Assembly: GCA_003218395.1 (NCBI GenBank)
Contig: QHNJ01000009.1
Span: 1-41,224 of the forward strand
DNA from: Verrucomicrobiota bacterium
GTDB taxonomy: Bacteria; Verrucomicrobiota; Verrucomicrobiia; Chthoniobacterales; UBA10450
Length of the DNA: 41,224 nt
Direction of reading: 5' to 3'
Made by a program: the position numbers and the translations under genes. The notes beneath the pieces were generated by a model that was given only the letters and a program-made list of their open reading frames with translations, made no database searches and had not been told where the DNA came from. Positions 3,812 through 40,895 of this stretch are shown here, piece after piece (the first letter of the stretch is position 1; each line of letters begins with the position of its first letter).

Positions 3812-4236
3812 TGGCTTTCCGCTGGAATGATGCCAAAAATCAATTCGGTATTCCAGGAATGATCGACGCGGATTGGCAACGGCAAGCGGGGCAGGGGACT
3901 CACGCCACTCTCAGCCGATTCGACATGCACAACACCTTGATCGCGGCCGGTCCGGATTTTCGCCGCGGTGGGGTGGACGATTTGCCAACCGGAAATGTCG
4001 ATCTTGCGCCGACGATTCTGCAAATTCTCAGAATTAACCCGCCGCAACAATTGGATGGCAGAATTTTGTCCGAAGCCATGGTTAACATCGATCCGTCGAC
4101 TGTGAAGCCGGAAACTAAGACGATCCAAGTCATCAAAGCCTTACCGTCAGGAACGTGGCGGCAATCGCTTCAAATCTCACGTGTCGGCTCGACGATTTAC
4201 CTCGACGAAGGCAATGGTGCGTTTGCAAAGAGGTAG
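3805..4236 (+). CDS. Alkaline phosphatase/nucleotide pyrophosphatase family protein, C-terminal part
   Basis: Continues the protein of 2750-3811 in another frame. Reading this frame back from 3805 gives IDNQHAPDVVMAFRW beginning at 3781, so the two halves join there if one base is restored. The segment holds GTHATLSRFDMHNTLIAAGP, the conserved GxHG-like metal site (here GTHA), and DVGNVDLAPTILQ-like GNVDLAPT, which are the C-terminal metal ligand and helix motifs of the superfamily. The end (EGNGAFAKR-stop) is supplied by the first bases of the palindromic element at 4232. The gene may be intact in the organism if the shift is an assembly error. Confidence 0.75.
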   Translation: MVMAFRWNDAKNQFGIPGMIDADWQRQAGQGTHATLSRFDMHNTLIAAGPDFRRGGVDDLPTGNVDLAPTILQILRINPPQQLDGRILSEAMVNIDPSTVKPETKTIQVIKALPSGTWRQSLQISRVGSTIYLDEGNGAFAKR

Positions 4237-4283
4237 CGACAGCGCGGTGCGCTGTCCGGACGCCGCAGCGTGGCGTCCCTACC
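4232..4283. repeat. Three-way-junction palindromic element, copy 1
   Basis: Outer stem GGTAG (4232-4236) with CTACC (4279-4283). Inside are two adjacent hairpins: GACAGCGC/GCGCTGTC (8 pairs, loop GGT, 4238-4256) and GGACGCCGC/GTGGCGTCC (one wobble, loop AGC, 4258-4278). The TAG in the left outer arm is the stop codon of the phosphatase. Its last 26 bases differ at only two positions from those of the copy inside the cyclase gene at 26579. Confidence 0.85.
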
Positions 4284-4309
4284 ACGATTGACATCGTGCA
4301 ATTCGCTTA

Positions 4310-4591
4310 CTAGCCTCGCAATCGTGTTTTGCTTCGCTGGCCGCATCGCCACAATCCTCGCGCTTTGTTGTGCGATTGGTTTGCACTGGATCGCTTTGCA
4401 GTAAATTCCGAAAAAAAGTCTGATCTCCCGTCAGCGACGCCGAAGATCGACATGATCTGTGCGCCACGCACAACTTCTTTGACGCCGCCTTTTGTCAGTT
4501 TCGCGTACCCGAGAATTTCCTTCGCGTTCTCTGCTAGTGTGCGCGCACCGCTTGTTCCTCCGCCGAGGACATTCTTGAGCTAACGAGCCAT
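4310..4591 (-). pseudogene. Decayed gene fragment, minus strand
   Basis: Reading the minus strand from 4591, the frame gives MAR, then TAG, then LKNVLGGGTSGARTL and further protein-like sequence ending GAQIMSIFGVADG near 4427, after which composition looks non-coding up to a stop at 4310. The protein-like stretch has a plausible amphipathic pattern, while its plus-strand shadow looks random. CAG to TAG would explain the nonsense codon. I do not recognise the family. It may be a remnant C-terminus of a lost gene. Together with the plus-strand fragment at 4618, this 510-base stretch between the phosphatase and the outer-membrane protein holds only debris and a palindromic element. Confidence 0.3.
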
Positions 4592-4617
4592 CGGGTCGAA
4601 CTGCAGCTGCGTCGCGC

Positions 4618-4749
4618 GTGTGGGCGTTGCCGCAGCTTGCATTCTATCATCGAGCACCGGCGTCCCTGACGCGCGTGAAGCTCAATTACCGCAGAAATCC
4701 GGACGAAAACCCGCTGCTGCTGCGCAACCCAAAGGAGTTCAAAAAATAA
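4618..4749 (+). pseudogene. C-terminal remnant of an upstream gene
   Basis: In frame from GTG 4618 the product reads VWALPQLAFYH..., then LTRVKLNY and NPDENPLLLRNPKEFKK, ending at TAA 4747-4749. The second half looks like a genuine protein C-terminus, and its stop overlaps the predicted start of the next gene by two bases (ATAA), the arrangement expected for translational coupling. The frame is closed upstream by a TGA, so what remains is a truncated end. The family is not recognised. Confidence 0.35.
4731..4748 (+). promoter_or_regulatory. Ribosome-binding site pointing to an ATA start
   Basis: AAAGGAG at 4731-4737, followed after eight bases by ATA at 4746, which is in frame with the outer-membrane protein. 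From that codon the product begins (M)KIAFVRSIVISIF, a textbook signal-peptide start. No ATG, GTG or TTG occurs at this spacing. Confidence 0.6.
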
Positions 4750-5744
4750 AAATCGCGTTTGTTCGTTCTATTGTTATCTCGATTTTCTTACGCACCGCGT
4801 TGCCGGTTGCTGTCTTCCTCGCTGCGCTTGTTGTTTCGAGTAACAACGCTTTCTCGCACGGTTTTGCCGGCAACCGCTTTTTCCCGGCGACGCTCTCCAC
4901 GGATGATCCATTCGTATCCGACGAGCTTTCGCTTCCCACCGTTTCGAGCATCGTCACGCCGGACGAAGGCGGCACGCGAGACACCGAACTTTCGGTGGAC
5001 ATCGCCAAGCGCATAACGCGCGATTTTGGCATCGAGGCAGGCGAAACATTTCTGACGCTTCACCCGCGCGACGAGCGCTCAGTGAGCGGCTTCGGCAATC
5101 TCGAACTCGGCGCCAAATATGAATTCTTCGAGAATGATGAACACGAAAGCATCCTTTCGTTGGGTCTTGGCGTAGAAGTCGGTGGCACAGGCAGCGAGTG
5201 CGTGGGTGCAGACCCGTTTAGCACGTGGACTCCGGCGCTATTCTTTGGCAAGGGTCTGGGCGATTTACCGCAAGGCCTTCCACTGCTCCGTCCGCTTGTG
5301 ATCACCGGTGTCATTGGCGTTGCGATTCCCACGAGCGCAAGCACGTGCACATTCGGTATGAACCAAGAAACAGGTGAGAACGAAGTCGACATTGAGCGCC
5401 ACCCCAACGTTCTGCAATACGGCTTCGCTGTGGAATACAGCCTTATCTACCTGCAGGAGCAGGTGAAGGACATCGGCCTCCGGGCGCCTTTCGATCACCT
5501 GATTCCGCTCGTTGAGTTTTCCCTGGAAACGGCGCTCGACCGCGGGCAGGGCGGGCAGACCACGGGGACCATCAACCCTGGCGTCATCTGGTCGGGAAAA
5601 TACTTCCAAGTCGGCGCGGAAGCAGTCATTCCCATCAATTCGCGCACTGGCAGCAATGTCGGTTTCATTGCGCAGTTGCACTTCTATCTCGATGATCTTT
5701 TCCCTCACAGCATCGGCCGTCCACTCTTCGGAGGAAACAAATGA
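4746..5744 (+). CDS. Outer-membrane beta-barrel-like protein in the copper cluster
   Basis: About 332 residues. The first ~37 are a signal peptide (KIAFVRSIVISIFL to NNAFSHG). The mature part alternates hydrophobic and polar residues in strand-length blocks (LELGAKYEFF, SILSLGLGVEVGG, YGFAVEYSLIYLQ, YFQVGAEAVIPIN) and ends in a strand near FIAQLHFYLDD, the look of an outer-membrane barrel. The frame is open back to a GTG at 4620, but the strong AAAGGAG site and the signal peptide favour a start at the ATA at 4746. The stop overlaps the CopC start by four bases (ATGA), and CopC and CopD follow, so a role in copper or other metal passage is inferred. No named family is recognised. Confidence 0.7.
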   Translation: MKIAFVRSIVISIFLRTALPVAVFLAALVVSSNNAFSHGFAGNRFFPATLSTDDPFVSDELSLPTVSSIVTPDEGGTRDTELSVDIAKRITRDFGIEAGETFLTLHPRDERSVSGFGNLELGAKYEFFENDEHESILSLGLGVEVGGTGSECVGADPFSTWTPALFFGKGLGDLPQGLPLLRPLVITGVIGVAIPTSASTCTFGMNQETGENEVDIERHPNVLQYGFAVEYSLIYLQEQVKDIGLRAPFDHLIPLVEFSLETALDRGQGGQTTGTINPGVIWSGKYFQVGAEAVIPINSRTGSNVGFIAQLHFYLDDLFPHSIGRPLFGGNK

Positions 5745-6100
5745 GATGCACGATAGTCAGTTTATTTCTGATTGTTTTGACTGGCGCGGTGCGAGTTGAA
5801 GCGCACGCTTTTCTCAAGAACGCGGAGCCGGGCGTGGGTAGCACAATCCAGACATCGCCTAACGAAGTACGAATCCGGTTTACGGAAAACATTGAACCGA
5901 CCTTCAGCAGCATCCAGGTATTCGAAACGTCTGGGAAGGAAGTGGACAAACGCGATGTGCATCTGGATCACTCCGATCGCACGCTCCTGCACGTGTCTCT
6001 GCCGCGACTGAAAGCAGGAATCTATAAAGTCGTCTGGCGCGTTGTTTCTGTGGATACCCACGTGACAAACGGAAGCTTCACGTTCCGGGTCAGTCGTTAG
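5741..6100 (+). CDS. copC: CopC-domain copper-binding protein
   Basis: 119 residues. The signal peptide (1-21, ending RVEA) is followed directly by His22 of HAFLKNAEPG, the N-terminal copper ligand typical of CopC. The rest is a compact cupredoxin-like beta barrel: VRIRFTENIEP near 44-54, YKVVWRVVSVDTHVTNG near 95-111 with the D-x-H pair that completes the Cu(II) site, and a closing GSFTFRV strand. The protein should carry copper in the periplasm and hand it to the membrane partner CopD encoded next. The start is fixed by GGAGG seven bases upstream and the ATGA overlap with the preceding gene. Confidence 0.9.
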   Translation: MRCTIVSLFLIVLTGAVRVEAHAFLKNAEPGVGSTIQTSPNEVRIRFTENIEPTFSSIQVFETSGKEVDKRDVHLDHSDRTLLHVSLPRLKAGIYKVVWRVVSVDTHVTNGSFTFRVSR

Positions 6101-6124
6101 GCGCTCGCACTTCGGAGGGAGGTA

Positions 6125-7955: not shown

Positions 7956-10511
7956 CTACGACCAGGTGATCAGGCGTAGTTCGTGCGCTTGCATCAGATG
8001 CGGATGATTTGGCACAACACGCACACTAAATCCGTAGGTGCCGCTTTCCGTCGCGGGGACTGATCCTTGGTAAATATAATTGCCGCTCCCATCTGCCTGG
8101 CTGCTTTGATTCAAAACAGTCGCGGCTGGATTGCGGACGTCGCCGTTATCTGCCTCGCCGTGGTAGGCTTCCACGCGCACATGGTTTGGATCGACTGCGC
8201 CGAGATGGACTCGCGCGGTGATTTCTAGTGATTCGCCGACCAAAATGTTTTGTCGATCCTTGTTGGCCACTTGCACGTCTGAAATATGTACTTGCGGCCA
8301 ATCCTTCCGGATTTGTGTCTTCCACTGACTCAGTTGGGTGGCCGCGCCGCAACCATTGCGAGAAAAATCCTCGTACGATTTCGCGGCGGGGATATAAAGG
8401 CGCTCGGTATAATCCTTCACCATCCGCTGCGTGTTGAAGACCGGCGTGACGCTTCGGATTGATTCGCGCATCAATTGTAGCCAGGCGAGGGGAAGTTTGC
8501 CGTCGGGCTTCGCATAATAAAGCGGAATGATCTGGTTCTCGAGCAATTGATAAAGGCTGCTCGCGTCTCCTTCGTTTTGGAATTCGACCGTGCCGTTGCT
8601 GATCTCCGCGCCAATCGCCCAGCCGTTGTTGCCGTTGTAACCTTCGCGCCACCAGCCATCGAGTACGCTAAGGTTAATCCCGCCGTTGGGCGCCGATTTC
8701 ATTCCGCTCGTCCCGCTCGCTTCCAGCGGACGAAGCGGATGATTCAGCCAAAGATCGACACCCTGCACAAGACGGCGCGCGATGTAGCTGTCGTAGTCTT
8801 CCAGAAAAACGATGCGATTTTCGAAACCGACTTCGCGGCTGAACTTGTAAACCTCCTGGATAAGCGCCTTGCCGGCTTCGTCACGTGGATGCGCTTTGCC
8901 TGCGAAGATGAACTGCACAGGCCGCGTGGTGTCGTTGAGCAATCGCTTCAACCGTTCCTTGTCGCTGAACAAGAGCGTGCCGCGTTTGTAAGTCGCGAAA
9001 CGGCGTGCAAAGCCGATGGTCAAAATTTCCGGATCGAGAATGCGATTGACTTTGCGAATGGCTTCCGGCGATTCGCCCACGCGCTCGCGGCGTCGTCGCA
9101 CCCGTTCGCGTACAAACTCAATGAGACGCAGTTTAAGTTTTTGATGCGTCTCCCAGAGTTGTGTATCCGGAATATCGATGACGCCGCGCCAAAACTCGGG
9201 CTCAGCCAGATGTTCCTCCCATGCGCCGAGATGCTTTTGATAAAGCGCCGAAAATTCCGGCGCCATCCAGGTCTTGGTGTGGACACCGTTCGTGATGCTG
9301 GTGATCGGGACTTCCTGCACTGGGACACCGGCCCAGACGTCTTTCCAAAGCGATCGAGTTACCTCGCCGTGTAATTTGCTTACGCCGTTGGCGTGCCGAC
9401 TCAGCCGCAACGCGAGGATGGTCATGCTGAATGGGTCGCTCGGATCAACGCGCGTTTGGCCGAATGAGAACAATTCGTCGAAGGGAATGTTCAGTTCTTT
9501 GGCGAATGCGCCAAAATATTTTCGCATCATTTCGCGCGGGAATGAATCGTTGCCAGCGGGAACTGGCGTGTGCGTAGTGAAAATATTTGCCGCCGCCACG
9601 ACCTGGAGAGCGGAGTAAAAATCGAGTTTCTTCTGGATGACGTTAAGACGAATGCGTTCGAGCGCGAGGAACGCTGAGTGGCCTTCGTTCATGTGAAATA
9701 CATCAGGTTGGATGCCGAGGGCGCTGAGCGCTTTCACACCGCCGATCCCGAGCATGATTTCCTGGCGCATCCGCATTTCCAGGTCGCCGCCGTAAAGCTC
9801 AGCGGTGATTAATCGATCCTCAGCGCTGTTTTCCGGAGTGTCTGTATCGAGAAGGTAGACGCTGACTCGGCCCACACGCAGCTCCCAAAGCTTGGCAAAA
9901 ACGTCGCGATCCAGAATCGGGACCGAGACTAGCGAGCTCATGTCGCCGCGGCGTACTTCACGGATAGGCAGGTGATGAAAATTTTGATTGAGATTGATCG
10001 CTTCCTGAATGCCCTCCTTGTCGATCTGTTGCCTGAAGTAACCATGGCGATAGAGCAGCCCGATCGCCACGAAGTTTAGATCGAGGTCGCTCGCCGATTT
10101 GCAATGGTCGCTCGCCAGAATGCCGAGACCGCCGGAATAATTTGGAATTGACTCGTGAAAACCAAATTCGGCGGAAAAATAGGCGATCGGGTTTTTGATC
10201 GTGCTCCCGGCGCCGGTCTTTCCGTAAGTGTCTTTGCGACCCAAGTATTTCTCGAACGCCTCGAAGACCTGCTTCAGCTCGCGGAGAAAAGTTTTGTCCT
10301 GTGAAAGTTCCTCCAGCCGCGATTGCCGCGAGAGCTGGAGCATGCGTACCGGATTGTGATTGGTCCGGTTCCAAAGCTCCGGATCGAGGTGCCGGAAGAG
10401 GCGGCGCGCGGACGGCTCCCATGTCCACCAAAGATTGAAACTCATCTCGCGCAGCGGCTCGAGCGTCGCCGGCAAGGTCGGAGTCACATTGTAAGTTTGA
10501 AAAGTCGGCAT
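7956..10511 (-). CDS. glgP: Alpha-glucan (glycogen) phosphorylase, GT35
   Basis: 851 residues, the short bacterial form. It releases glucose-1-phosphate from alpha-1,4-glucans using pyridoxal phosphate. It opens with the family-specific FNLWWTWEP, continues with AYFSAEFGFHESIPNYSGG (substrate loop), HMNEGHSAFL, ITNGVHTKTWMAPE and ARRFATYKR, and contains SGTSGMKSAPNGG with the cofactor-binding Lys near residue 604. The C-terminal ~120 residues form an Ig-like extension found in this subgroup. The start ATG is clear, without a strong ribosome site. glgB lies at 38178 in this window, so glycogen synthesis and breakdown are both represented, though not linked. Confidence 0.95.
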   Translation of the reverse strand: MPTFQTYNVTPTLPATLEPLREMSFNLWWTWEPSARRLFRHLDPELWNRTNHNPVRMLQLSRQSRLEELSQDKTFLRELKQVFEAFEKYLGRKDTYGKTGAGSTIKNPIAYFSAEFGFHESIPNYSGGLGILASDHCKSASDLDLNFVAIGLLYRHGYFRQQIDKEGIQEAINLNQNFHHLPIREVRRGDMSSLVSVPILDRDVFAKLWELRVGRVSVYLLDTDTPENSAEDRLITAELYGGDLEMRMRQEIMLGIGGVKALSALGIQPDVFHMNEGHSAFLALERIRLNVIQKKLDFYSALQVVAAANIFTTHTPVPAGNDSFPREMMRKYFGAFAKELNIPFDELFSFGQTRVDPSDPFSMTILALRLSRHANGVSKLHGEVTRSLWKDVWAGVPVQEVPITSITNGVHTKTWMAPEFSALYQKHLGAWEEHLAEPEFWRGVIDIPDTQLWETHQKLKLRLIEFVRERVRRRRERVGESPEAIRKVNRILDPEILTIGFARRFATYKRGTLLFSDKERLKRLLNDTTRPVQFIFAGKAHPRDEAGKALIQEVYKFSREVGFENRIVFLEDYDSYIARRLVQGVDLWLNHPLRPLEASGTSGMKSAPNGGINLSVLDGWWREGYNGNNGWAIGAEISNGTVEFQNEGDASSLYQLLENQIIPLYYAKPDGKLPLAWLQLMRESIRSVTPVFNTQRMVKDYTERLYIPAAKSYEDFSRNGCGAATQLSQWKTQIRKDWPQVHISDVQVANKDRQNILVGESLEITARVHLGAVDPNHVRVEAYHGEADNGDVRNPAATVLNQSSQADGSGNYIYQGSVPATESGTYGFSVRVVPNHPHLMQAHELRLITWS

Positions 10512-13487: not shown

Positions 13488-13511
13488 CCGCCGACTCGGT
13501 GTGACTGCGAA

Positions 13512-16540: not shown

Positions 16541-16592
16541 TTGTAGGGCGTTTCTGCGAAACGCCATGGCGTCTGGTACAGACGCCCTACAA
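16541..16592. repeat. Three-way-junction palindromic element, copy 2 (between convergent genes)
   Basis: Outer stem TTGTAG (16541-16546) with CTACAA (16587-16592). Two perfect 8-pair hairpins inside: GGCGTTTC/GAAACGCC (loop TGC) and GGCGTCTG/CAGACGCC (loop GTA), separated by AT. The aroB stop codon lies in the right arm. Placed between the convergent amidase and aroB genes, it could act as a two-way transcription terminator. Confidence 0.9.
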
Positions 16593-17663
16593 TTCATCAA
16601 CCGCTTCGCGGATGTCGTCGAGCGTCACGTCGTTGGTGATGTGCGCGGTGCCGATGCGTGGCGTAACAATAAACCGAATGTGTCCGCTCTCGATTTTTTT
16701 GTCGTACGGAAGGGCAGCGAAAATCTTTTCGCGCGGAAAATTCGGCGGCAATTGGGTCGGTAAATCGAACCTCCGTAAAAGATCGACAATTGCATCCCGC
16801 TGATTGGGCGGTAGTCCGGCCTTCTTAATTGAGATGGCGCATGCCGCAACAATTCCGAGACTTACCGCTTCACCATGAAGAAATTTCCGGTAATTTCCGG
16901 CGCGCTCAATTGCGTGACCGACGGTGTGCCCGAAATTGAGAATAGCTCGCTCGCCAGTACGATCGCGCTCGTCGCGCGCGACGATTGCCGATTTAATCTT
17001 GATGTTGCGCTTGATGAGTAGCGCAAGTTTGGAACTTGCACTCTCATTGGCGCGCAACTTGGGCTGTTGCGCAAGTATTTCGAACATTTCGCGATCGGCG
17101 ATAATGCCGTGCTTGATGATCTCCGCGAAGCCTTGATTGAACTCGCGCCCAGGCAGCGTCTTCAGAACATCGACATCATCGATCACGAGTGATGGATGAT
17201 GCACTGCGCCGATTAGGTTTTTCCCGTCAGCCGCGTTGACCCCGGTTTTTCCGCCAATCGAGCTGTCCACCATGGCGAGCAGCGTGGTGGGAATCTGGAC
17301 GTGCGGAATGCCACGATGATAAATCGCCGCGACAAATCCGGAAATGTCGCCAATCATCCCCCCGCCCAGGCCAATAACAAACGACTGTCGGTCGAGCCCC
17401 GCAGTGATCATTCGGTCGCAGATCGCGCCAGCTTGCTCAAGCGTCTTAGATTTTTCGCCCGCTGGGATTGTGATCACCATTGACCTAAATTCGGCTGACG
17501 TTAGGCTTTGTTTTAAGACGTCAGCATATTCCGGAGCGATATTTGTATCCGAAACAATGACGCATTGGCCGAAGAGCCCGAGTGCCCGACACCTTTTCCC
17601 GGTCTGCGGCAACAACTGCTTACCGATTAGGATGCGCCCGGTACCGGTACGCACAGAGATCAT
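16587..17663 (-). CDS. aroB: 3-dehydroquinate synthase
   Basis: 358 residues, usual length. It converts DAHP to 3-dehydroquinate, the second step of the shikimate pathway, using NAD and zinc. Visible motifs are IGLGGGMIGDISGFVAA (NAD site), RGIPHVQIPTTLLAMVDSS, GKTGVNAADGKNLIGA, and the zinc-ligand regions QGFAEIIKHG, LNFGHTVGHAIE and LHGEAVSLG. It is cytoplasmic. The stop is TAG inside the palindromic element at 16541-16592. The prepilin-like gene starts upstream on the same strand with a 13-base gap. Confidence 0.96.
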   Translation of the reverse strand: MISVRTGTGRILIGKQLLPQTGKRCRALGLFGQCVIVSDTNIAPEYADVLKQSLTSAEFRSMVITIPAGEKSKTLEQAGAICDRMITAGLDRQSFVIGLGGGMIGDISGFVAAIYHRGIPHVQIPTTLLAMVDSSIGGKTGVNAADGKNLIGAVHHPSLVIDDVDVLKTLPGREFNQGFAEIIKHGIIADREMFEILAQQPKLRANESASSKLALLIKRNIKIKSAIVARDERDRTGERAILNFGHTVGHAIERAGNYRKFLHGEAVSLGIVAACAISIKKAGLPPNQRDAIVDLLRRFDLPTQLPPNFPREKIFAALPYDKKIESGHIRFIVTPRIGTAHITNDVTLDDIREAVDEL

Positions 17664-18975: not shown

Positions 18976-18979
18976 AAAT

Positions 18980-19030
18980 GTGGGAGGGACCTTGGTGTCC
19001 CGATCATCGCGGCACTAAGGCCGCTCTCAC
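18980..19030. repeat. Three-way-junction palindromic element, copy 3 (holds the holA stop)
   Basis: Outer arms GTGGGAG (18980-18986) and CTCTCAC (19024-19030), one mismatch. Internal hairpins GGGAC/GTCCC (18986-19001) and GCGGC/GCCGC (19009-19024). The last codons and the TGA of holA lie within it, and the DUF4870 gene stops five bases before it, so it may terminate both transcripts. Confidence 0.75.
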
Positions 19031-20272
19031 ATTGTCTGTCCCGAGCAATTTCACGACAACCTCGGTTAAAATCAGCTCATGGTCGAGCTGCGTGGTGACG
19101 AGCTGAAGATTTGCCTCGAGACACGCCTGCATAGCTTCAATCAATTGTTTGGTCTCGAACTGATGCGCATGCTGCGCTGCGATCCCCAACGCGTAGGCAT
19201 TGATCGAACCATCTTTCTTGCGAGGTAAGTGATCTGTCGCCCCAGCGGGCAAGCGGTTGATTGCAGAGATAAATTGGAATGGCGAGTGCGGGCAGGCGAG
19301 GCGATGACGTTCCATCAAGTCGTTGGCGAGTAGCAAATTTCGGAGCGTTGGAACGATCGCAACGAGTAAAATACCGATGGCACTTTCGCCTTGATCCAAT
19401 AATCGTCGCACAAGTCTAAGCGCGAGTTCCAGGTCGCGTGTCGCCAGCGCATTGCTTAACTCGAAAATGACACCCGCCCTGGAAAGCGGCACCAGGTCCC
19501 GGACAAGATCGACGGTAACTCGTGGCACAGGCGCCTTCTGTGGCACGGCCATCTTGGCTGTGGGACTGGCGGGCATCGTGCCTGCCGGTTCGGAGTCAGC
19601 AGGCGAGACGCTCGCTTGCCCCACAGGCTGGAAGCCCGTGCTACGGCCGCCCACGAGAAAGATGTCGATTTTCTCCAGTTCGTTCTCGATCTGGCGTGTA
19701 TCACCGCCAGTTAGCAGCACGAAAAGATCAAGCGCTTCGTCATCGAATTGCAGTTTTCGTTTTTTCGCGCGGCTTCGAACGATCTCGCTGGCTTCCTCCT
19801 CCCAGCCGCTCCGGCTGGAATCAAACCGATCGAAAATTTGCAACTCCGCCCGTTTGACCAGCAACCGATAAAACGAGCGACGCTTGTCCACTTCGGTGGC
19901 GCTGATCAGAAAGGTCACGTCAGAGCCGAGGCCGTTTTCGATCAGGTCTGATAATTCCTCGAGCGCGAACTGAACGCTTGTGGCGCAGCTGAGCTGGGTG
20001 TCGCCGAGAAAATTCGCGCTCTTCAACCACACGACCTTTGTGCTGCCGAAGAAAGGCAACGTTTGCAGCGCCTCGATTGTCGATCTTATGCGCGCCGCCG
20101 CCTGGTCGGCGTTTTCGGCCACGCCATCAACGATTTCCAATCCGAAATCGCCCGCCTCTGGCGGTGTCAGGCTGGTCGCGAGGTCGGAGGCCACGCGTTT
20201 GACTTCGCTTTCGTCCGAGCCCATCACCGCATAGAGATTGCCAGTTGCCGTTTTTGTTTTTGTTTTCGGCAT
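19004..20272 (-). CDS. holA: DNA polymerase III subunit delta with inserted palindromic element
   Basis: 422 residues from the ATG at 20272 (MPKTKTKTATGNLYAVMG), longer than the ~340 of E. coli. It is the clamp-loader arm that opens the beta sliding clamp. The order fits: NLYAVMGSDESEVKR, LPFFGSTKVVWLKSANFL near 72-90, the sensor/linker EALDLFVLLTGGDTRQIENELEK, and a C-terminal helical collar with LLDQGESAIGILLVAIVPTLRNLL. Residues about 210-244 do not fit the family and are encoded by an exactly 105-base palindromic element (19540-19644). The ending lies in another element (18980-19030). uvrB lies upstream on the same strand. Confidence 0.85.
   Translation of the reverse strand: MPKTKTKTATGNLYAVMGSDESEVKRVASDLATSLTPPEAGDFGLEIVDGVAENADQAAARIRSTIEALQTLPFFGSTKVVWLKSANFLGDTQLSCATSVQFALEELSDLIENGLGSDVTFLISATEVDKRRSFYRLLVKRAELQIFDRFDSSRSGWEEEASEIVRSRAKKRKLQFDDEALDLFVLLTGGDTRQIENELEKIDIFLVGGRSTGFQPVGQASVSPADSEPAGTMPASPTAKMAVPQKAPVPRVTVDLVRDLVPLSRAGVIFELSNALATRDLELALRLVRRLLDQGESAIGILLVAIVPTLRNLLLANDLMERHRLACPHSPFQFISAINRLPAGATDHLPRKKDGSINAYALGIAAQHAHQFETKQLIEAMQACLEANLQLVTTQLDHELILTEVVVKLLGTDNVRAALVPR
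19540..19644. repeat. Three-way-junction palindromic element, copy 4 (in frame in holA)
   Basis: Exactly 105 bases (35 codons). Its ends are imperfect inverted repeats, GTGGCACGGCCATCTTGGCT and the reverse complement of GTAGCACGGGCTTCCAGCCT, about 20 of 27 positions matching. Two short hairpins lie within: GGCA/TGCC around TCG (19572-19582, extendable) and GCGAG/CTCGC around ACG (19603-19615). On the coding strand it encodes STGFQPVGQASVSPADSEPA and onward. Confidence 0.75.
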
Positions 20273-20339
20273 TGGAGATTTCTTCGCACGCGGGGCGAGG
20301 ATTACAAGATTGGGTCGTTCGAGCGCGGATTTGGGGAGC

Positions 20340-20356
20340 ACAGGCTGCCAGCCTGT
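20340..20356. repeat. Short perfect hairpin upstream of holA
   Basis: ACAGGCT/AGCCTGT around GCC, about 70 bases upstream of the holA start and 45 bases past the uvrB end. Its bases echo the STGFQP-coding half of the element inside holA (CCAGCCTGTG), so it may be a partial copy of that repeat. Confidence 0.55.
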
Positions 20357-20400: not shown

Positions 20401-22722
20401 TCAGACGCGCGAGCGCCGGCGGCCCGCGTTGCGCGTGTATTTCACCAGCCTTCGTTTCGGTTCGATCCTAGTGATGCCAGCGCCACTTTTCACTTCCATG
20501 ATTTGATCCCGTAAAAGCGCCGCGCGCTCGAATTCGAGATTGGCCGACGCTCGCTGCATTTCATCCTCTAGTTCGCGCAGCAGCTCGGTTATGTTGAAAT
20601 CGCCGCCGGCTTCCTGAATGACGGAAGCGGCGATTTCGCGTCCGCGCAAAATTGTGTGCAAACTCTCTTGCACGGCGCGCCGAACGGTTTGCGGCGTGAT
20701 GCCGTGCTTTTCGTTGTATTCCATCTGCCTGGCGCGTCGGTATTCCGATATCGACATCAGCGCTTCCATGCTTTGCGTGACCTGATCGGCGAAGAGCACG
20801 ACTTCGCCGTTCACATGCCGCGCCGCGCGTCCCGCCGTCTGGATTAGGGAAGTTTGGCTGCGCAAGAAACCTTCCTTGTCCGCATCGAGAATGCAGACGA
20901 GCGAGACTTCTGGAAGATCGAGACCTTCGCGGAGCAAATTGATCCCGACTAGGATGTCGAAATCAGCCGCGCGCAGCCCACGCAAAATTTCGACGCGCTC
21001 TATCGTGTCGATGTCGCTGTGGAGATAGCGCACCTTCAATCCGACATCTCGCAGATAATCTGCCAGATCTTCGGCTGTTCGTTTCGTCAGCGTTGTCACG
21101 AGAACTCGCTGGTTCCTTTCGACACGCTGACGGCAGAGCTCGATTGTGTCGTCGATCTGATGCTTTAACGGCTTTAGCGTGATTTTTGGATCGAGCAGCC
21201 CGGTAGGACGAATGATCTGTTCGATCACGAGCGCCGCCCCCGCCGTGCGAACGTCGAATTTTCCCGGTGGCTCGTCGGTACGCGAGAGCACTTTTTCTGG
21301 GGAGCGCACGCGCCATCGCTTGCTGTTTGACGCGCCTCGCGTCAAACTCTCTTTTCTCGATTTATGCGCAGAAGGACCATCCGGGGAGGCGCCGGATGGA
21401 GTACGCGAGGGCGCATGCGCTCCCCGATCCGATTTTCCGGGCAGCACGAATGGAATGGGCTCATCTTGCCCGATCCGCTGTCGCTTGTGCGGAACGTAGC
21501 CCTCATTTTCGACCACGCTGTTTTGAATTTCGAATTCCGCCGGTGTGGCGCTCACGTAAATGAGCTGATTCGTCATCTTCATGAATTCGTCGAAATTGAG
21601 CGGCCGATTATCGAGCGCGCTAGGCAAACGAAATCCGTACTCGACCAGCACGGTTTTGCGCGAGCGATCGCCTTCGTACATGCCACCGATCTGCGGAATC
21701 GTGGCGTGCGATTCATCGATCACCACGAGAAAATCTTTCGGGAAGAAATCGATGATTGTGTATGGCTTCGATCCGGGTGGCCGTCCCGATAAATGCCGCG
21801 AATAGTTTTCAATCCCGTTGCAGAAGCCCATTTCCTGCAACATTTCGAGATCGTACTCCGTGCGCATTTTCAGCCGCTGGGCTTCGAGAAGTTTGTTCTG
21901 CGATTCCAGCACTTTGATTCGATCTTCCAGCTCCGCGCGAATCGTGCGCAGCGCTCGATTCAATTTGTCCGCCGGTGTCACGAATTGTTTCGCAGGATAG
22001 AACGTGATCACACTAAGCGATTCACGCGCGTGACCGGTTAAAGGATCGAAGCGCGTGATCGCATCGACTTCGTCGCCGAAGAACTCGATGCGGATCGCTT
22101 CCTCATCCGCGGTCGCCGGATAAATCTCGACGATATCGCCGCGAACACGGAACCTGCCGCGCGCAAAATTGATGTCGTTGCGCTCGTATAACATGTCAAC
22201 CAAACGACCGAGCACGGCTTCGCGACTGATCTGCTTGCCCCGTTTTACTGTTAGCAGCATGTTCAAGTAATCTTCCGGCGATGTGATGCCGTAGATGCAT
22301 GAGACGCTTGCTACCACGATCGTGTCACGGCGTGAAAGCAGCGCGCTGGTCGCAGCGAGCCGCAAACGCTCGATCTCTTCGTTAATCGACGAGTCTTTCT
22401 CGATGTAGGTGTCGGAGCGAGGAATGTAAGCTTCCGGCTGGTAATAATCGAAGTAGCTGACGAAATACTCGACCGCGTTGCGCGGGAAAAATTGCTTGAA
22501 TTCGGAGTAAAGTTGCGCGGCGAGCGTTTTGTTGTGCGAAATAACAAGCGTCGGCCGATCAAGCTCCCGGATCACATTGGCGATCGTGAACGTTTTTCCA
22601 GAACCGGTCACGCCGAGCAATGTCTGGTGACGGTTCCCCGCTTCGACCGACTTGAGCAGCTTGGCGATCGCCTGGCCCTGGTCGCCCCGTGGCTTGTAAT
22701 TCGATTCGAGGTGAAACGGCAT
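20401..22722 (-). CDS. uvrB: Excinuclease ABC subunit B with inserted palindromic element
   Basis: 773 residues; UvrB is usually 660-700. It is the damage-verifying helicase-like subunit of nucleotide excision repair. Walker A GVTGSGKT is at 37-44, the damage-inserting hairpin lies near [20 protein letters not shown], then [50 protein letters not shown] and [11 protein letters not shown]. The C-terminal UVR motif is [20 protein letters not shown]. Between EFEIQNS and [10 protein letters not shown], where most UvrB proteins join directly, there are about 90 extra residues. Part of these (about 433-475) is encoded by a 127-base palindrome; the remainder may be a lineage loop. The frame is intact, so the protein is presumably functional. 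Confidence 0.95.
21299..21425. repeat. Three-way-junction palindromic element, copy 5 (in frame in uvrB)
   Basis: Ends are inverted repeats: GGGGAGCGCACGCGCC (21299-21314) against GGGGAGCGCATGCGCC read from 21425 inward, with one mismatch, and the match continues with TCGC. Two hairpins lie inside: TTTGACGCG/CGCGTCAAA around CCT (21326-21346) and CATCCGG/CCGGATG (21378-21398). The coding strand reads [20 protein letters not shown] and onward. Confidence 0.85.
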
Positions 22723-24109: not shown

Positions 24110-25304
24110 GCGGAATCCGGACACGCTGCTCGAGGATTACAAAGCCGCCGAGCAACTTTACATGCAAGCGATTGAGCTCGATCCCAAGTTCGCGCTCGCC
24201 CACGCGCACCTTGCATCGACCTGCGCAGAGATTTTCCATTTTGACGAGCCGACCGAAGTTTGGAGAACGAAAGCCTACACCGAAGCGGAAATTGCTCTGC
24301 GCCTCCAACCGAACCTGCCAGAAGCACACTTTGCACTTGGTCAATGCATTTACTGGATGGATCAGGATTATGAGCGCGCTCTCGAACAATTCGAGATCGC
24401 TTCTCGCTTATCGCCGAGCAACGGAGACATTGGCCGGTTGATCGCGGCGATTAAACGCCGGCAGGGCAAATGGGAACAATCGCTCGAAGCGTACGAAAGG
24501 GTTGCGAAGATCGATCCGCAAAATCCGAATACCGTCCGCGAACTTTTCTTTACGCTCACGGCGATGCGTCGCTGGCCCGAAGCTGCCAAATGGGGCGAAC
24601 GAATGCGCGCAATTGCTCCGGCGTCGCTCGTCGCCAAAATTCAAAGCGGTTATGTCGATTTCTGGTGGAAAGGCGACACGCGCCTGCTCAAATCATTACT
24701 CAGCCAGGTGCCGGCAGGAACTGATCCAGACGGCGTGATAACGTCGTGCCGGTGGGACGTGGCCATGATCGACCGCGATTTTGTCGCGGCGCGCACGGCT
24801 TTGCAAAGCTGCGGCCTGAACGAGGTCTCCTACACGACTGGGAGCGCAACACCGAAGAGTTTTCTCCAAGGCTTGATCGAGCTGGCCGAAGGCAAACAGG
24901 CGCAGGCTCAGAAATTCTTTGAATTAGCGCAGCCGAATTTTGAAAAAGCGGTCGAGGAGGCGCCCTTGAGCGCTGATCGTCACGCCAATCTCGGTTGGTT
25001 CTACGCGTTTGCAGGTCGAAAGGACGAAGCTATTCGCGAAGGGAAACGCGCAGTGGAATTAAAGCCTGAGTCGAAAGATGCCTTAGATGGCGCGATCATG
25101 AATTGCTACCTCGCGCTGATCTACGCTCGTGTCGGCGAAAACGATCTTGCGATTCCGGTTATCGAACGATTGCTAAAAACGCGGGGCGCGGTCGACAGTG
25201 CCGATTACAGCATCACGATTAACGACCTGAAATATCGTTGGGAATGGGACCCGATTCGGAAGGATCCGCGTTTTCAGAAATTGATTACGAACAACGCGCT
25301 GTAA
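24081..25304 (+). CDS. Cyclase/TolB-like/TPR protein, C-terminal TPR part
   Basis: Reading this frame back to 24036 gives KARVEEIPTANTDAY, which in relatives follows the TolB-like domain. The annotated part starts at GTG 24081 with FYLRANQIERNPDTLLEDY and contains several TPR units (LYMQAIELDPKFALAHAHLA, AEIALRLQPNLPEAHFALG, LEQFEIASRLSPSNG, EAYERVAKIDPQNPNT, AVEEAPLSADRHANLGWFYA). It ends with KYRWEWDPIRKDPRFQKL, the shared C-terminal motif of this protein type. It is the sensor or scaffold half of the cyclase protein at 22928, separated from it by a deletion. Confidence 0.8.
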   Translation: MFYLRANQIERNPDTLLEDYKAAEQLYMQAIELDPKFALAHAHLASTCAEIFHFDEPTEVWRTKAYTEAEIALRLQPNLPEAHFALGQCIYWMDQDYERALEQFEIASRLSPSNGDIGRLIAAIKRRQGKWEQSLEAYERVAKIDPQNPNTVRELFFTLTAMRRWPEAAKWGERMRAIAPASLVAKIQSGYVDFWWKGDTRLLKSLLSQVPAGTDPDGVITSCRWDVAMIDRDFVAARTALQSCGLNEVSYTTGSATPKSFLQGLIELAEGKQAQAQKFFELAQPNFEKAVEEAPLSADRHANLGWFYAFAGRKDEAIREGKRAVELKPESKDALDGAIMNCYLALIYARVGENDLAIPVIERLLKTRGAVDSADYSITINDLKYRWEWDPIRKDPRFQKLITNNAL

Positions 25305-25704: not shown

Positions 25705-25871
25705 TTTCGATCAGTACTATCGGGCTGCTGTACCTGTCAAACTTCAAATCTGTGGACTGCCAATCGCGGAGGAAATACGAGCCTTGATCCGACCGATTCC
25801 GTCGCCTAGCAGGAGTCCTGGCGTTCCATTGACCGCCGTTAGGGCAGTGCGATTCTGCGTAGGTTGATTTG

Positions 25872-28037
25872 ATGGCCGCCAAGCTAAAAACCGATTCGCA
25901 CCTTGAGATTGCTCACGTCTTGTTCATCGACGTGGTGGGCTACTCGAAGTTGCTCGTCAACGAGCAGCGAGAAGTGGTTGAGCAACTTAATCGAACCGTA
26001 CGAAGAACTCCTCAGTTCCGGAAAAGCGAAGGGGCCGGCAAGCTAATTCGGATTCCGGTTGGCGACGGGATGGCCCTCGTCTTCTTCCAAACTCCGGAGG
26101 AGCCAGTGCAGTGTGCAATGGAAATTGCCAGGGCGCTGAAAAACCATCCGCAGATTCGGCTGCGGATGGGCGTCCACAGCGGCCCTGTCGATCAGGTCAA
26201 AGATGTCAATGACAGATCAAATGTCACTGGAGTGGGAATCAATATCGCGCAGCGAGTGATGGATTGCGGCGATGCTGGGCACATTCTGGTCTCCAAACGC
26301 GTGGCCGACGATCTCGCGCAAGACAGTCTTTGGCAGCCGCATCTGCACGAACTCGGTGACGTCGAGTTGAAACACGGTCAGAAGGTCGGAATCGTCAATC
26401 TTTACACTGAGGAACTCGGCAACCGAGAGTCGCCGCAGAAGTTCGCTTCGGCAAAGAAGCCGGAAGCGAAGCTCGAAAAAGCGCAGAGTGCTGATTCGAA
26501 GATCTGCCTGAGACGGTGGATTATCGGAATCGCCATCGGAACTGTTCTCGCGATCGCAGCGGCGAGATTTTATCGAATGGTAGGGACCGACCGCTGGGCC
26601 GTCCGCCCAAATGCTGTCGAACAAGGACGCCGCGGCGCGGCGTCCCTACCTGTTCCGAATAAATCGATTGCGGTGCTTCCGTTCGTGAACATGAGCGCGG
26701 ACAAGAACGACGAGTATTTGAGTGATGGCGTCAGCGAAGAGTTGATCACCGCGCTCTCGAAGATCACTGGTTTGCAAGTCAAGGCCCGGACTTCATCGTT
26801 CGCGTTCAAGGGCAAGAACGAAGATATCGAGAAAATCGGCGAGCTACTGCACGTCAGTCATTTGCTCGAAGGCAGCGTCGCCAGGGCTGGCAATAAATTG
26901 CGCATCACAGCGCAGCTCATCCAGGCCTCGGACGGCAACCATCTTTGGTCGGACACGTACGACCGCGAGATGCAGGACATCTTTGCGGTCCGCAGCGAAG
27001 TGGCGCAGCAGGTGGCGGCGACCTTGAAAATCCGTCTGCTCGGCGAGGAGAAGAAGCGCTTGGACCAGAAGCCGACGGAGAATATCGAAGCTTACAATCT
27101 CTACCGGCAAGGACGCTACTACGCCGACAAATTTTCCCAAGACGGTTTCAAAAAGGCGATCGGTTTCTATCAGCAGGCTATCGAGAAAGATCCTCGCTTC
27201 GCGCTCGCTTACGCCGGAATGGCCGACACTTACGTGCTGGCTGCGGATTTTTACATCCCGCCGCGGGAAGCGTTTTCAAAAGCAAAAGAGGCCGCGCTCA
27301 AAGCCATCGAAGTCGATGAGACTCTGGCTGAGGCCCATGCTTCACTTGGGTTCGTTCACTTCCATTACGACTGGGACTGGGCCGCAGCGGAAAAAGAGTT
27401 CAAGCGCGCGTTGACTCTCAATCCTCAATCAGCGCAGGCGCATTTACTCTATACGGAGTATTTGGCGGGAATGGGACGATACGACGAAGCATACAGTCAG
27501 GGTCGGCGAGCGCTGGAGCTTGACCCGCTTTCAATTTCAGCACGCTGGTCGCTGGGCTGGGCATCCCTGCATGCCGGTCGCAGCGATGACGCGATTCAGC
27601 AATTTTCCAAGGCGGCGGAACTTGATCCGAACAACGCTTGGGTGCGGCTATACTTAGGGCGCGCGTACCTGAGCAAAGGAATGGGGCAACGCGGTATCGA
27701 AGAAATGGAAACCGCCCAACGTCTCGAGCCCGACCATCCGATGGTGCTGGCTTTCCTCGGTTACGGCTACGCGGTCACAGGCCGACGCGCCGACGCGTTG
27801 AAGTCACTTCAGACTTTGGACGAAATAGAAAAGAAACATTACGTCTCGCGCATCTCCCGTGTTTACGTTTACGCTGGACTCGGAGACAAGGACAAGGCGT
27901 TTGAGTGGCTGGAGAAAGCTTACCAGGAACGCTCGGACTTGCTGGCGTGGTTTCGCAAAGACCCGGAATCGAAAAACCTTCAATCCGATCCGCGCTTCGC
28001 TGCGTTGATGCGGAAGATTGGATTTACAGAACCGTGA
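25872..28037 (+). CDS. Class III nucleotidyl cyclase/TolB-like/TPR protein
   Basis: 721 residues, intact paralogue of the broken gene at 22928. Cyclase domain 10-172: VLFIDVVGYSKLL, IPVGDGMALVFFQTPE, GINIAQRVMDCGDAGHI, so the metal Asp pair and the Asn/Arg pair are kept. Membrane helix ~215-235 (WIIGIAIGTVLAIAAARF). TolB-like domain from ~264 (KSIAVLPFVNMSADKNDEY, LLHVSHLLEGSVARAGNKLR, DIFAVRSEVAQQVAATL). About eight TPR units from ~400. It ends LQSDPRFAALMRKIG. Residues ~237-260 are encoded by a 72-base palindrome inserted just after the membrane helix. The ATG at 25872 follows a TTG. Confidence 0.9.
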   Translation: MAAKLKTDSHLEIAHVLFIDVVGYSKLLVNEQREVVEQLNRTVRRTPQFRKSEGAGKLIRIPVGDGMALVFFQTPEEPVQCAMEIARALKNHPQIRLRMGVHSGPVDQVKDVNDRSNVTGVGINIAQRVMDCGDAGHILVSKRVADDLAQDSLWQPHLHELGDVELKHGQKVGIVNLYTEELGNRESPQKFASAKKPEAKLEKAQSADSKICLRRWIIGIAIGTVLAIAAARFYRMVGTDRWAVRPNAVEQGRRGAASLPVPNKSIAVLPFVNMSADKNDEYLSDGVSEELITALSKITGLQVKARTSSFAFKGKNEDIEKIGELLHVSHLLEGSVARAGNKLRITAQLIQASDGNHLWSDTYDREMQDIFAVRSEVAQQVAATLKIRLLGEEKKRLDQKPTENIEAYNLYRQGRYYADKFSQDGFKKAIGFYQQAIEKDPRFALAYAGMADTYVLAADFYIPPREAFSKAKEAALKAIEVDETLAEAHASLGFVHFHYDWDWAAAEKEFKRALTLNPQSAQAHLLYTEYLAGMGRYDEAYSQGRRALELDPLSISARWSLGWASLHAGRSDDAIQQFSKAAELDPNNAWVRLYLGRAYLSKGMGQRGIEEMETAQRLEPDHPMVLAFLGYGYAVTGRRADALKSLQTLDEIEKKHYVSRISRVYVYAGLGDKDKAFEWLEKAYQERSDLLAWFRKDPESKNLQSDPRFAALMRKIGFTEP
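26579..26650. repeat. Three-way-junction palindromic element, copy 6 (in frame in a cyclase)
   Basis: 72 bases, exactly 24 codons. Outer stem GGTAG/CTACC (extended GGTAGGGAC/GTCCCTACC). Hairpin GGACGCCGC/GCGGCGTCC around GGC (26625-26645), perfect, and a weaker left hairpin in GGACCGACC...GGCCGTCC. Its right 26 bases match the copy at 4258-4283 at 24 positions. It lies between the membrane helix and the TolB-like domain and encodes VGTDRWAVRPNAVEQGRRGA and onward. Confidence 0.85.
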
Positions 28038-33176: not shown

Positions 33177-34084
33177 TACCGGTCATCTTTGGGCAACCCA
33201 GGCGGGCGGTCCGAAAGTTTCGGCGTCGTGCCGCGTGCGGTTTGCGCGGCCGGCGCCTCGATCACACCGCCGCGCACCGCTACGTCGCCATTAGCGGCGT
33301 GCACAAGACGTGGGCGCGTTTTTGTTTCCATGAAAGAAGAGTGCGCAAGCAGTTCACCGTTTAAGCCAATGCGCGAATAGGACCAGGCGCGTGGCGCCGC
33401 GCAATGGAGAACATGCAATTGATTCGCGCGATCGATTTCTGCCTGTGGTTCCTCGAAAGCGATGGTCCGGCCCAACGAATAAGTCGCATAGACGGTTCCG
33501 CTGTCCCTGTCCTGCACGCGTACATACAAAGAGGTATGGTCCGGAAAGCGGTTTGTGAGTAGCGCGTAGGTGCGCGCGTTCCCGGGCGCGGCAACGCCGT
33601 CGGGAATACCGACTGTCTGCTGCCAGATCGGCCGCGCATCGGTCACTTCGAAAACGCGCGTTCCCGAATAAAAAAATTTCTCCAAATCCGCGAAATAAAT
33701 ATGCGCACGAACGTGATAGGTGCCGAAATCGTGCACCGGATAAAGCGGAGTAAGATTGATCCGCTGTGTCACCTTTTGCCCGGCTTCAATTTTCAAGGGC
33801 GGTTGCGCGTTATCTGTCGCGATGGGCGGAATCGGCTGACCTTCGCTTCCAGTCACCTCGAATCCAAACCACGATTGCCCATCGGCATCGTGAAGGTCCA
33901 CATCGCGTCCGGCCAGATTGGTAATGGCAAGTGTGGCTACCACCGGCTCGTAAGCGATGTACTGCAATCGCTTGAATTTCAGGTCCACCTGAATTTGCGC
34001 TTCTCCTGTGACCGCAAAGAGGAAAACGCATACAACCAGCAGGATATATTTTATCACACGGTAAAATAACGCAATTGGTAGCAT
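33176..34084 (-). CDS. Secreted protein of unknown function
   Basis: 302 residues from the ATG at 34084, which opens a hydrophobic signal (LPIALFYRVIKYILLVVCVF to VTGEAQ). An in-frame start 93 bases further upstream exists. The mature protein is beta-rich, with YIAYEPVVATLAITNLAGR (an Ig-like opening also seen in proteins that begin with a transglutaminase or BsuPI-like domain), VTQRINLTPLYPVHDFGTY and YATYSLGRTIAFEEP. No catalytic motif is seen. It overlaps the amidase start by one base (TAATG), so the two are likely translated together. Confidence 0.65.
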   Translation of the reverse strand: MLPIALFYRVIKYILLVVCVFLFAVTGEAQIQVDLKFKRLQYIAYEPVVATLAITNLAGRDVDLHDADGQSWFGFEVTGSEGQPIPPIATDNAQPPLKIEAGQKVTQRINLTPLYPVHDFGTYHVRAHIYFADLEKFFYSGTRVFEVTDARPIWQQTVGIPDGVAAPGNARTYALLTNRFPDHTSLYVRVQDRDSGTVYATYSLGRTIAFEEPQAEIDRANQLHVLHCAAPRAWSYSRIGLNGELLAHSSFMETKTRPRLVHAANGDVAVRGGVIEAPAAQTARGTTPKLSDRPPGLPKDDR

Positions 34085-37583: not shown

Positions 37584-37585
37584 CG

Positions 37586-37692: not shown

Positions 37693-37707
37693 CCGCGAAG
37701 CCGTCAA

Positions 37708-38104: not shown

Positions 38105-38166
38105 ACGTCAAGTCGTTGAATCGTAAATCGTAAATCCAATGTAACGATGTAACGTTTTAACGTTGG
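38105..38166. repeat. GTTAC/TAACG-word spacer repeat upstream of glgB
   Basis: CGTTGAATCGTAAATCG, TAAATCCAATGTAACG and ATGTAACGTTTTAACG. It is close to the reverse complement of the 15178-15243 tract, so the repeat occurs in both orientations. It ends about a dozen bases before the glgB start. Confidence 0.65.
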
Positions 38167-38177
38167 AACACATAACT

Positions 38178-40382: not shown

Positions 40383-40406
40383 TTTGTTAGTCTCGCTAAA
40401 TCTTGA

Positions 40407-40694
40407 TCACGTTGTGTCAATAGTAAGGACTTCTCTGAAAGCTAGTGTCAAGCGGTGAGGCGGTGAGGTGGTTAGTAGTGGTGGTTCGACACGCTCGAGC
40501 CGATCGTAGATCGCCTGCCAGTTCCAGCATGCCTCAATCACCACCCGGCTCTTGCCGCCCAACGAGCAAAAAAATTGAGCGAAACCAGCAGCCAGATTGC
40601 CCTCGATGCGGGCTTCGCCTAGCCGCCGGCCTCGCTCGTCCTGCGCAACACAAACACTGTAGCGTTTGTGGATATCGATTCCAACGTAATTCAT
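40407..40694 (-). mobile_element. IS110-family transposase remnant
   Basis: The first ~70 residues match the IS110 DEDD transposase N-terminus: NYVGIDIHKRYSVCVAQDER (first catalytic Asp) and SRVVIEACWNWQAIYDRLE (Glu region). The frame then turns into PLLTTSPPHRLT and LAFREVLTIDTT-stop, which does not fit the family, so the rest of the ~330-residue protein is gone. The remainder of the fragment may be the element's far end, brought close by internal deletion. Not functional. Confidence 0.85.
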
Positions 40695-40705
40695 GATAGC
40701 ATCTC

Positions 40706-40735
40706 CTTTCGGTTGCCCAAACGCTCCACCGAAAG
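40706..40735. other. Hairpin upstream of the IS110 transposase start
   Basis: CTTTCGGT/ACCGAAAG, 8 perfect pairs with a 14-base loop (TGCCCAAACGCTCC on plus). It lies 12 bases before the transposase ATG, in the non-coding end where IS110 elements encode their bridge RNA, but no core-recognition loops can be assigned from one copy. The 150 bases beyond it carry no gene. Confidence 0.55.
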
Positions 40736-40841
40736 AGCGATGCTTTCATGCTACCTGACCCCATTTTCCATTCCCGGTTCGGGCGTCGAGTGCAAAATAC
40801 AGAAATACGGATCGACAAATCGCGCCTGGCAAGGTTGTGGC

Positions 40842-40895
40842 GGGTAGGACGGTTCATCGAACCGCCCAAGCCGATTGTGGTCAATCGCCCTACCC
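40842..40895. repeat. Three-way-junction palindromic element, copy 7
   Basis: Outer stem GGGTAGG (40842-40848) with CCTACCC (40889-40895). Internal hairpins CGGTTC/GAACCG (loop ATC, 40850-40864) and CGATTG/CAATCG (loop TGGT, 40872-40887), all perfect. It ends two bases before the stop of the partial TPR gene. Confidence 0.85.

Follow-up and report, generated by a model that had tools for sequence, protein, structure and literature searches.

REP doublets forming hairpins (REPINs) are known from Pseudomonas and Escherichia coli. In these hosts, two inverted repetitive extragenic palindromic (REP) sequences fold into a hairpin or 'clover', are dispersed over the genome and are tied to a REP-associated tyrosine transposase (RAYT), and REP singlets are regarded as decay products (sections of Bertels and Rainey 2011, PMC3116915). 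The stretch considered here is a 41,224-nt contig of a Verrucomicrobiota bacterium of the order Chthoniobacterales (QHNJ01000009.1 of assembly GCA_003218395.1; the whole stretch is hereafter called the window). It carries seven palindromic elements that are most probably (about 0.93) REPINs of several families, passengers mobilized by RAYTs (HUH/Y1 enzymes) encoded elsewhere. Inverted doublets, the hairpin or clover fold and dispersed families tied to RAYTs are common to both settings. Unlike the REPINs treated in those sections of PMC3116915, the present ones reside in a Verrucomicrobiota host, belong to several families per genome and lie inside coding genes in three of the seven window copies.

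GTAG-tagged REPs, as covered in parts of Di Nocera et al. (2013, PMC3733652), supply TAG stops to neighboring open reading frames (ORFs) and form intragenic dimers in repair genes, namely in uvrA of O. terrae and, with a repeat type of its own, in uvrB of R. conorii. The same parts describe repeat-specific REPtrons and RAYT-like genes (TIRYT) flanked by terminal inverted repeats, and report O. terrae (Verrucomicrobia) as highly enriched in GTAG REPs. The GTAG tag, the supply of TAG stops, intragenic copies in repair genes and repeat-specific RAYTs all recur here. Unlike the GTAG REPs of those parts, however, the present elements have other type sequences, show orthologous-site turnover within one genus and are accompanied by RAYTs in frame in housekeeping genes. 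The TnpAREP of E. coli is an HUH/Y1 RAYT whose substrate consists of a GTAG motif and a stem-loop (sections of Corneloup et al. 2021, PMC8266576). The perfect palindromes of the window resemble the group 3 REPs of those sections, a likeness short of a group assignment. The palindromic elements of Rickettsia (as cited in PMC3733652) likewise lie in frame in protein genes; unlike them, the window elements are associated with RAYT genes and carry GTAG-like tags. The traits found here, from the fold and the doublets to repeat-specific RAYTs, stop codons and intragenic copies, have been described before, and GTAG REPs were already known in this phylum (PMC3733652, same parts).

The window is contig C39 of genome G000, an assembly of 2.95 Mb in 335 contigs (87.8% complete). 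The closest sibling met is G013 (HolA 95% identical). The best named UvrB relatives are the soil-type Verrucomicrobia AV56, AV95 and AV54 (84-86% in the best segment), followed at ~70-73% by others, including Chthoniobacter, which places the bacterium near that genus. Across dozens of species of this one genus of soil Verrucomicrobiota, several REPIN families, their RAYTs and their empty, refilled or swapped sites are open to comparison, so that questions of REPIN movement and RAYT persistence become testable.

Fold and architecture of the elements

An earlier, sequence-only reading of the window had described seven elements, each with an outer inverted repeat enclosing exactly two hairpins. 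All seven exist:

4232..4283, type A REPIN (GGTAG...CTACC, two hairpins); covariance model R1 (see below) match at E 1.8e-16, strict scan, fold
16541..16592, type B REPIN (TTGTAG...CTACAA); strict scan, fold
18980..19031, type C element (GTGGGAG...CTCTCAC); fold, relaxed scan, weak RAYT-flank matches
19540..19652, type D element inside holA; fold, translation, site comparison, RAYT-end match
21299..21427, type E element inside uvrB; fold, translation, site comparison, RAYT-end match
26579..26650, half-decayed type A REPIN of 72 nt; R1 match at E 5.7e-7, right hairpin 26625-26650 intact
40842..40895, type F REPIN (GGGTAG...CTACCC); strict scan, fold, same type beside RAYTs

All of them fold better than shuffled sequence. 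When folded as single-stranded DNA against 200 shuffles each (21299 as 21299-21440), the elements reached z-scores of -4.2 (4232), -7.1 (16541), -3.7 (18980), -3.2 (19540), -7.7 (21299), -2.6 (26579) and -4.4 (40842). No shuffle folded as well for six of the elements, and 1 of 200 did so for 26579. Elements 4232, 16541 and 40842 are near-perfect palindromes with an outer stem and two hairpins, and 19540 (113 nt) and 21299 (~129 nt) are larger nested structures in which the outer stem holds two main inner hairpins. The count of exactly two hairpins does not hold for all seven. At minimum energy, 18980 forms one long hairpin, and its two-hairpin form, with 5-bp hairpins, appears in the relaxed scan only (18977-19033). 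In 26579 the right hairpin is well kept and its partner decayed, the outer arm being open in the minimum-energy fold and closed in the centroid. In 21299 a small third inner helix stands beside the two main hairpins.

The arms carry the tags GGTAG/CTACC in type A, TTGTAG/CTACAA in type B and GGGTAG/CTACCC in type F. The variant tags of types C, D and E (GTGGGAG, GTGGCACGG and GGGGAGC) resemble the REPIN tag loosely. There are two architectures: GTAG doublets (A, B, F) and terminal-repeat-like elements (C, D, E).

Scans for the two-hairpin form were compared with dinucleotide-preserving shuffles of the window sequence. The strict scan (both hairpin stems of at least 6 bp, outer stem of at least 5) found three matches, namely 4232, 16541 and 40842; the shuffles gave a mean of 0.14 and a maximum of 2, and 0 of 400 reached 3. 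The relaxed scan, with 5-bp stems, found six: four of the listed elements and the objects at 8341 and 33949. In 100 shuffles the mean was 1.88 and the maximum 6. This maximum equals the observed count, and the relaxed scan was discarded as non-specific. The objects at 8341-8387 and 33949-33999, found at relaxed thresholds only, may be due to chance. In a 360-kb sample of the other contigs of the genome, the strict scan gave five matches (shuffle mean 1.15; 1 of 40 shuffles reached 5), one of which resembles a REP type by eye. The sequence-only reading had named as a refutation that matched shuffles would yield as many such junctions. This did not happen at the strict threshold; at the loose one the shuffle maximum equaled the observed count, and the genome sample was marginal.

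Type A as a dispersed and covarying family

A BLAST search of G000 with the 4232 region gave 12 matches. Apart from the region itself, they comprise seven doublets of nearly full length, spread over six further contigs, and four shorter matches, 26625-26650 among them. The sequence-only reading had noted that this last segment agrees with 4258-4283 at 24 of 26 bases, which is right; the best of 100 base shuffles reached 20 of 26. A joint MAFFT alignment of several types proved meaningless, as the hairpins differ between types, and type A was therefore analyzed by itself. The eight BLAST doublets (4232 included) and one copy found by its end motifs were aligned, and the structure was written by hand. 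In these nine copies, 95.5% of the 198 stem cells pair (shuffled mean 83.9%), 9 of 22 pairs are changed on both sides (4.3) and 21 cells are double-changed (6.4). When the partners were slid by 1-3 columns, 34-58% of the cells paired and 0-3 pairs were double-changed.

The covariance model R1 was built from this alignment. In G000 it detected 30 distinct loci at E<=0.01, nine of them training copies (150 of 1320 candidates scored). An object at 5362-5417 of locus record L027 (G000:C40) is a further two-hairpin form that matches R1. In a set of 39 genomes, R1 found copies in all 25 that belong to the genus and, weakly, in 2 of the 14 from elsewhere in the order. The 100 strand matches in 51 sources were reduced to one strand for each of 51 loci, and identical sequences were merged. 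Among the resulting 45 distinct copies across the genus, selected by structure, 97% of 985 stem cells pair and 120 are double-changed, against a shuffle mean of 28 and a maximum of 40. In the covariance search of genome and relatives that the sequence-only reading had proposed, the stems of type A do show compensatory changes between copies, the lack of which it had named as a refutation. The GGTAG/CTACC arm is near-invariant across the copies while the hairpin stems covary. This fits a protein that would recognize the tag by its sequence and the hairpins by their shape.

In ~0.45 Mb of other G000 stretches, types B, C and F have one or two further matches each and type D several, and type F has many copies in G007 and G013.

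Linkage of the elements to RAYT genes

In G000, a type A doublet adjoins a RAYT remnant on contig C154, which is broken and lies in two frames. Its protein led to relatives in 14 of the 39 genomes. The RAYT of G004:C9 (151 aa; 104.6 bits with the protein family NF047646) has a type A REPIN ~20 bp upstream and a second one overlapping its stop codon; its only PDB match is the TnpArep structure 4er8 (E 2.7e-11). Type A doublets also lie beside the RAYTs of G014:C131 and G013:C16. As the upstream flank of the type A RAYT locus is common to G004, G000 and G013, it looks like one inherited locus. Six of the seven stand-alone RAYTs scanned score above the 80-bit cut-off of NF047646; the remaining one reaches 74.8.

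The window elements were compared with 90 RAYT locus records, several of them duplicates of one place, and with 40 more. Copies of types A, C, D, E and F flank RAYTs in congeners at 0-101 bp from the gene. For type A, 12 of 14 matches are no more than 77 bp from a RAYT and, with duplicates removed, represent five places in four genomes; the other two are at 2.7 and 4.4 kb. The RAYTs of G021:C110, G010:C128, G013:C16 and G016:C50 have type F at a distance of 10-101 bp. A type D match (85% over 48 nt, E 3e-5) lies 50 bp from a RAYT embedded in carB of G043. For type E, the match is GGGGAGCGCACGCGCC (16 of 16 nt, BLAST E 0.008), 33-49 bp from RAYTs embedded in metH of G008, G007 and G014. By eye, types A and F stand beside the RAYT as whole doublets, and types C, D and E with half of the window element on each side of the gene. 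The window copies of C, D and E look, again by eye, like both ends of such a RAYT unit without the gene.

The flanking RAYTs thus cover types A, D and F, and weakly C and E, in each case in congeners; type B stands outside this pattern. The single family of shared design that had been proposed from the sequence is better described as two architectures that comprise several REPIN families, whose RAYTs differ. The shared process of that proposal is supported, with types A, C, D, E and F found beside RAYTs.

Host genes and the same sites in relatives

Three of the seven elements lie in frame inside ORFs, three overlap gene ends and one lies just past a gene end. The named genes are the following:

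19004..20341, minus strand, holA (DNA polymerase III delta), hosts element D; TIGR01128 133.5 bits
20401..22722, minus strand, uvrB, hosts element E; NF003673 1028 bits in two stretches
16587..17663, minus strand, ORF with its 3' end in element B; orthologues in 23 of the 31 genomes of the genus

The last of these is a putative aroB (3-dehydroquinate synthase), judged by its protein sequence. Its TAG stop lies in the right arm of type B (CTACAA, 16587), just as the TAG stop (4234-4236) of ORF 3805-4236 is supplied by the GGTAG of the type A element. The holA gene terminates inside element C, which contributes its final codons and its TGA stop, and the type F element follows closely on the TAA that ends the minus-strand ORF 40898-41224. 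According to the translations, element D is in frame in holA at about residues 230-268, element E in the uvrB linker at about residues 432-475, and the 26579 element within the TPR/adenylate-cyclase-like ORF 25869-28037. The best solved UvrB chain lacks an equivalent of residues 403-497 of this UvrB, and the linker varies in length in relatives without element E as well. The HolA insert falls between two stretches aligned to 3zh9, the second of which is not significant by itself.

Empty sites in close relatives had been named in the sequence-only reading as a check, and empty or differently filled sites were indeed found at 4232, holA, uvrB and the aroB-like ORF. For 4232, seven relatives were aligned by eye: G002 has the element, G039 and G014 have a decayed form of it, and G042, G044, G023 and G007 lack it. 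The comparisons at holA, uvrB and the aroB-like ORF rest on the rows listed of each alignment. Element D is absent from 14 of 14 aligned holA relatives listed, 13 of which have both HolA halves in one open frame. At its site, G002 has a run of N and G003 and G039 have short remnants, and in G013, G042, G023 and G044 the HolA matches run across the region. Element E is common to G000 and G013 only, among 14 aligned sequences. The uvrB linker (window about 21285-21461) holds other palindromic inserts in several members of the genus and is short in some; judging by these alignments, in-frame insertion is tolerated there.

The end of the aroB-like ORF (11 of 19 rows) carries type B also in G002, G023 and G020, other palindromes, by eye, in G013, G044, G014, G007 and G016, and a whole RAYT unit in G003 (L314). 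Judged by these rows, it is a repeated landing place, with at least four palindrome types by eye and the RAYT unit. At the end of holA, where the window has type C, the sibling G013 carries an F-like REPIN (by eye), and G042 and G039 have a B-like copy. Turnover of mobile units that keep landing in the same places would leave just such empty, decayed and differently filled sites.

Proposed mechanism and alternative explanations

A REPIN is a short non-autonomous unit of two inverted REP units with a GTAG-like tag, whose single strand would fold to a stem with two hairpins (the 'clover'). A RAYT encoded elsewhere would recognize the tag and hairpin on single-stranded DNA, cut beside them and then move or copy the unit. 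The cutting, copying and single-strand recognition are inferred from studied relatives. Observed here are the fold, the compensatory changes, the multicopy spread (best for type A), the linkage to RAYTs in congeners and the sites that differ between congeners. Each type would have its own RAYT, that of A and F standing alone with REPINs at its borders, that of C, D and E flanked by half-elements. The insertions in holA, uvrB and the TPR/cyclase-like ORF would persist because they are stop-free and keep the frame, those in uvrB and holA presumably sitting between aligned structural blocks.

Several results weigh against this explanation. Architecture alone is weak evidence at loose thresholds and persuasive at strict ones only, and the case rests on the sequence families and the comparison between genomes. 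The 45-copy statistic leans towards the REPIN reading, as the R1 copies were chosen by structure; the nine-copy alignment does so less. Dispersal in multiple copies is found for type A and is not shown for type E, which has no second good copy in the ~0.45 Mb of G000 (longest further match 14-nt). The type C matches, 17-60 bp from the RAYTs of G019:C29 (E 0.044) and G003:C300 (E 0.04-0.16), are weak, the linkage of type E rests on a 16-nt core, and 7 of 11 type D matches lie 0.9-2.3 kb from RAYTs in the same loci. Type B has no cognate RAYT in the fetched RAYT loci (the 90 records and 40 more), some of which share only TTGTAGGGC/GCCCTACAA arms with it. Of the six RAYT-family matches in the incomplete assembly of G000, the broken type A gene is the sole one linked to a window type, so that these genes do not demonstrate present mobility there. 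No target rule and no excision or insertion event was demonstrated by the site comparison among congeners.

The most serious competitor, although an unlikely one, is that the elements are kept mainly as host RNA elements (terminators, mRNA stabilizers or a regulatory RNA family) by selection on the RNA fold, any mobility lying in the past. The covarying stems would suit such a role, as would the overlap of three of the seven elements with gene 3' ends and the position of a fourth just past one. However, three of the seven lie inside coding genes, a search of the window against Rfam at the gathering score gave 0 matches, and the near-invariant part is the GTAG-bearing arm. At the places of elements C and B, moreover, the sibling G013 has another type, and the types match the ends of transposase genes. 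An RNA role could also coexist with the REPIN reading.

Ordinary IS200/IS605 elements, as movers in place of RAYTs, are very improbable. IS200-type Y1 transposase genes do occur in G000, at C4 and C328 above the cut-off and more weakly at C154. The matching ends, however, adjoin RAYT genes (six of the seven scanned exceed the NF047646 cut-off), no window type matched around the C4 or C328 genes (L017, L018), and the nearest copy at C154 is more than 1 kb away. With no matching ends close by, these three genes were set aside. That the elements are chance inverted repeats of a 55% GC window, two of them coincidentally similar, has next to no probability left. The loose-threshold shuffles (maximum 6, observed 6) and the modest excess in the 360-kb sample would allow it, but the strict count was reached by no shuffle, type A is multicopy and genus-wide, and types are linked to RAYTs; multicopy matches speak against chance for A, B, D and F.

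RAYTs embedded in housekeeping genes

Types D (in holA) and E (in uvrB) resemble the ends of RAYTs that are themselves embedded in other genes. A search with NF047646 gave matches in 29 of 31 genomes of the genus, and at least 36 of the matches listed lie in open frames of at least 500 aa. These 36 include the probably mis-binned G000:C334 and one match that is interrupted by a stop. Six examples were scanned for protein families, which identified the hosts as RecG, MetH, CarB, AlaS, L-threonylcarbamoyladenylate synthase (TsaC) and a RarA-like AAA protein; MetH holds embedded RAYTs at two sites. The embedded RAYTs of the genus are in locus records L259-L278 and L345-L355, together with L020, which is probably mis-binned.

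G000 has two recG genes, one with a RAYT fusion (C334) and an empty one (C129). The RecG of C334 equals that of G007 at 100% over 907 residues. Given this identity and the second, empty RecG, contig C334 is probably mis-binned; its fusion was not ascribed to the window genome, and the contig was left unused as evidence on the host of the window.

Of the 26 sequences aligned at the RecG site, 11 have a full RAYT, one a RAYT cut by the contig end (G041), two an in-frame REPIN-like sequence only (G008, G040) and 12 nothing comparable. Left out were G002, G020 and G017 (partial or split), G000:C129, G022:C178 and G009 (no RecG match). For those of the 55 pairs in which dS is finite, the median ratio of nonsynonymous to synonymous substitution rates (dN/dS) amounts to 0.096 in the RAYT, to 0.067 in RecG and to 0.63 in the flanks derived from REPs. 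In this set dS is often saturated; the six pairs with RAYT dS <1.5 give 0.091 and 0.064 for RAYT and RecG. The RAYT in RecG is, by these codon ratios, under purifying selection. Its HxH motif is kept in 11 of 11 and the motif tyrosine in 10 of 11 (H in G001). The dN values of RAYT and RecG are uncorrelated (r 0.007), and a clearly different RAYT lineage occupies the same RecG site in G014, G042 and G044. At MetH sites 1 and 2 the RAYT dN/dS is 0.07 (one pair each). For CarB, only one of ten pairs has a finite RAYT dS (0.22, vs 0.048 for the host), and the codon statistics say little.

Whether these RAYTs lead an 'embedded life' is a question on which we place even odds. The in-frame RAYTs would be translated as domains of host proteins and kept working by purifying selection, their loss being constrained by the host frame, and their stop-free offspring REPINs D and E would settle in frame in the holA and uvrB linkers. 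If true, the host gene would serve the transposase, which would not spread on its own, as a stable address and a promoter, and the in-frame RAYTs suggest one concrete answer to why RAYTs persist. No published account of whole RAYTs in frame inside housekeeping genes was found in the open-access literature, as far as the accessible portions of it extend. In a survey of the RAYT protein family, a few proteins of unexpected length were set aside as fusions of genes or errors of annotation (PMC6006769, in part).

Other palindromes and a split gene

Two other RAYT genes of G000, at C95 (L021 2380-2841) and C3 (L022 2623-3045), have their own flanking palindromes of the AGGTGGATCGAGCAGTC and TGTAGAGGCGCGTGTCC types. 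A two-hairpin palindrome of the GTGGCAGCC type lies at 11857-11906 of L065. In the window itself, a TPR/adenylate-cyclase-like gene at 22928-25304 is split into two overlapping ORFs. The sibling G013 has 74 nt more at 24030, and the window copy seems to be broken by a small deletion.

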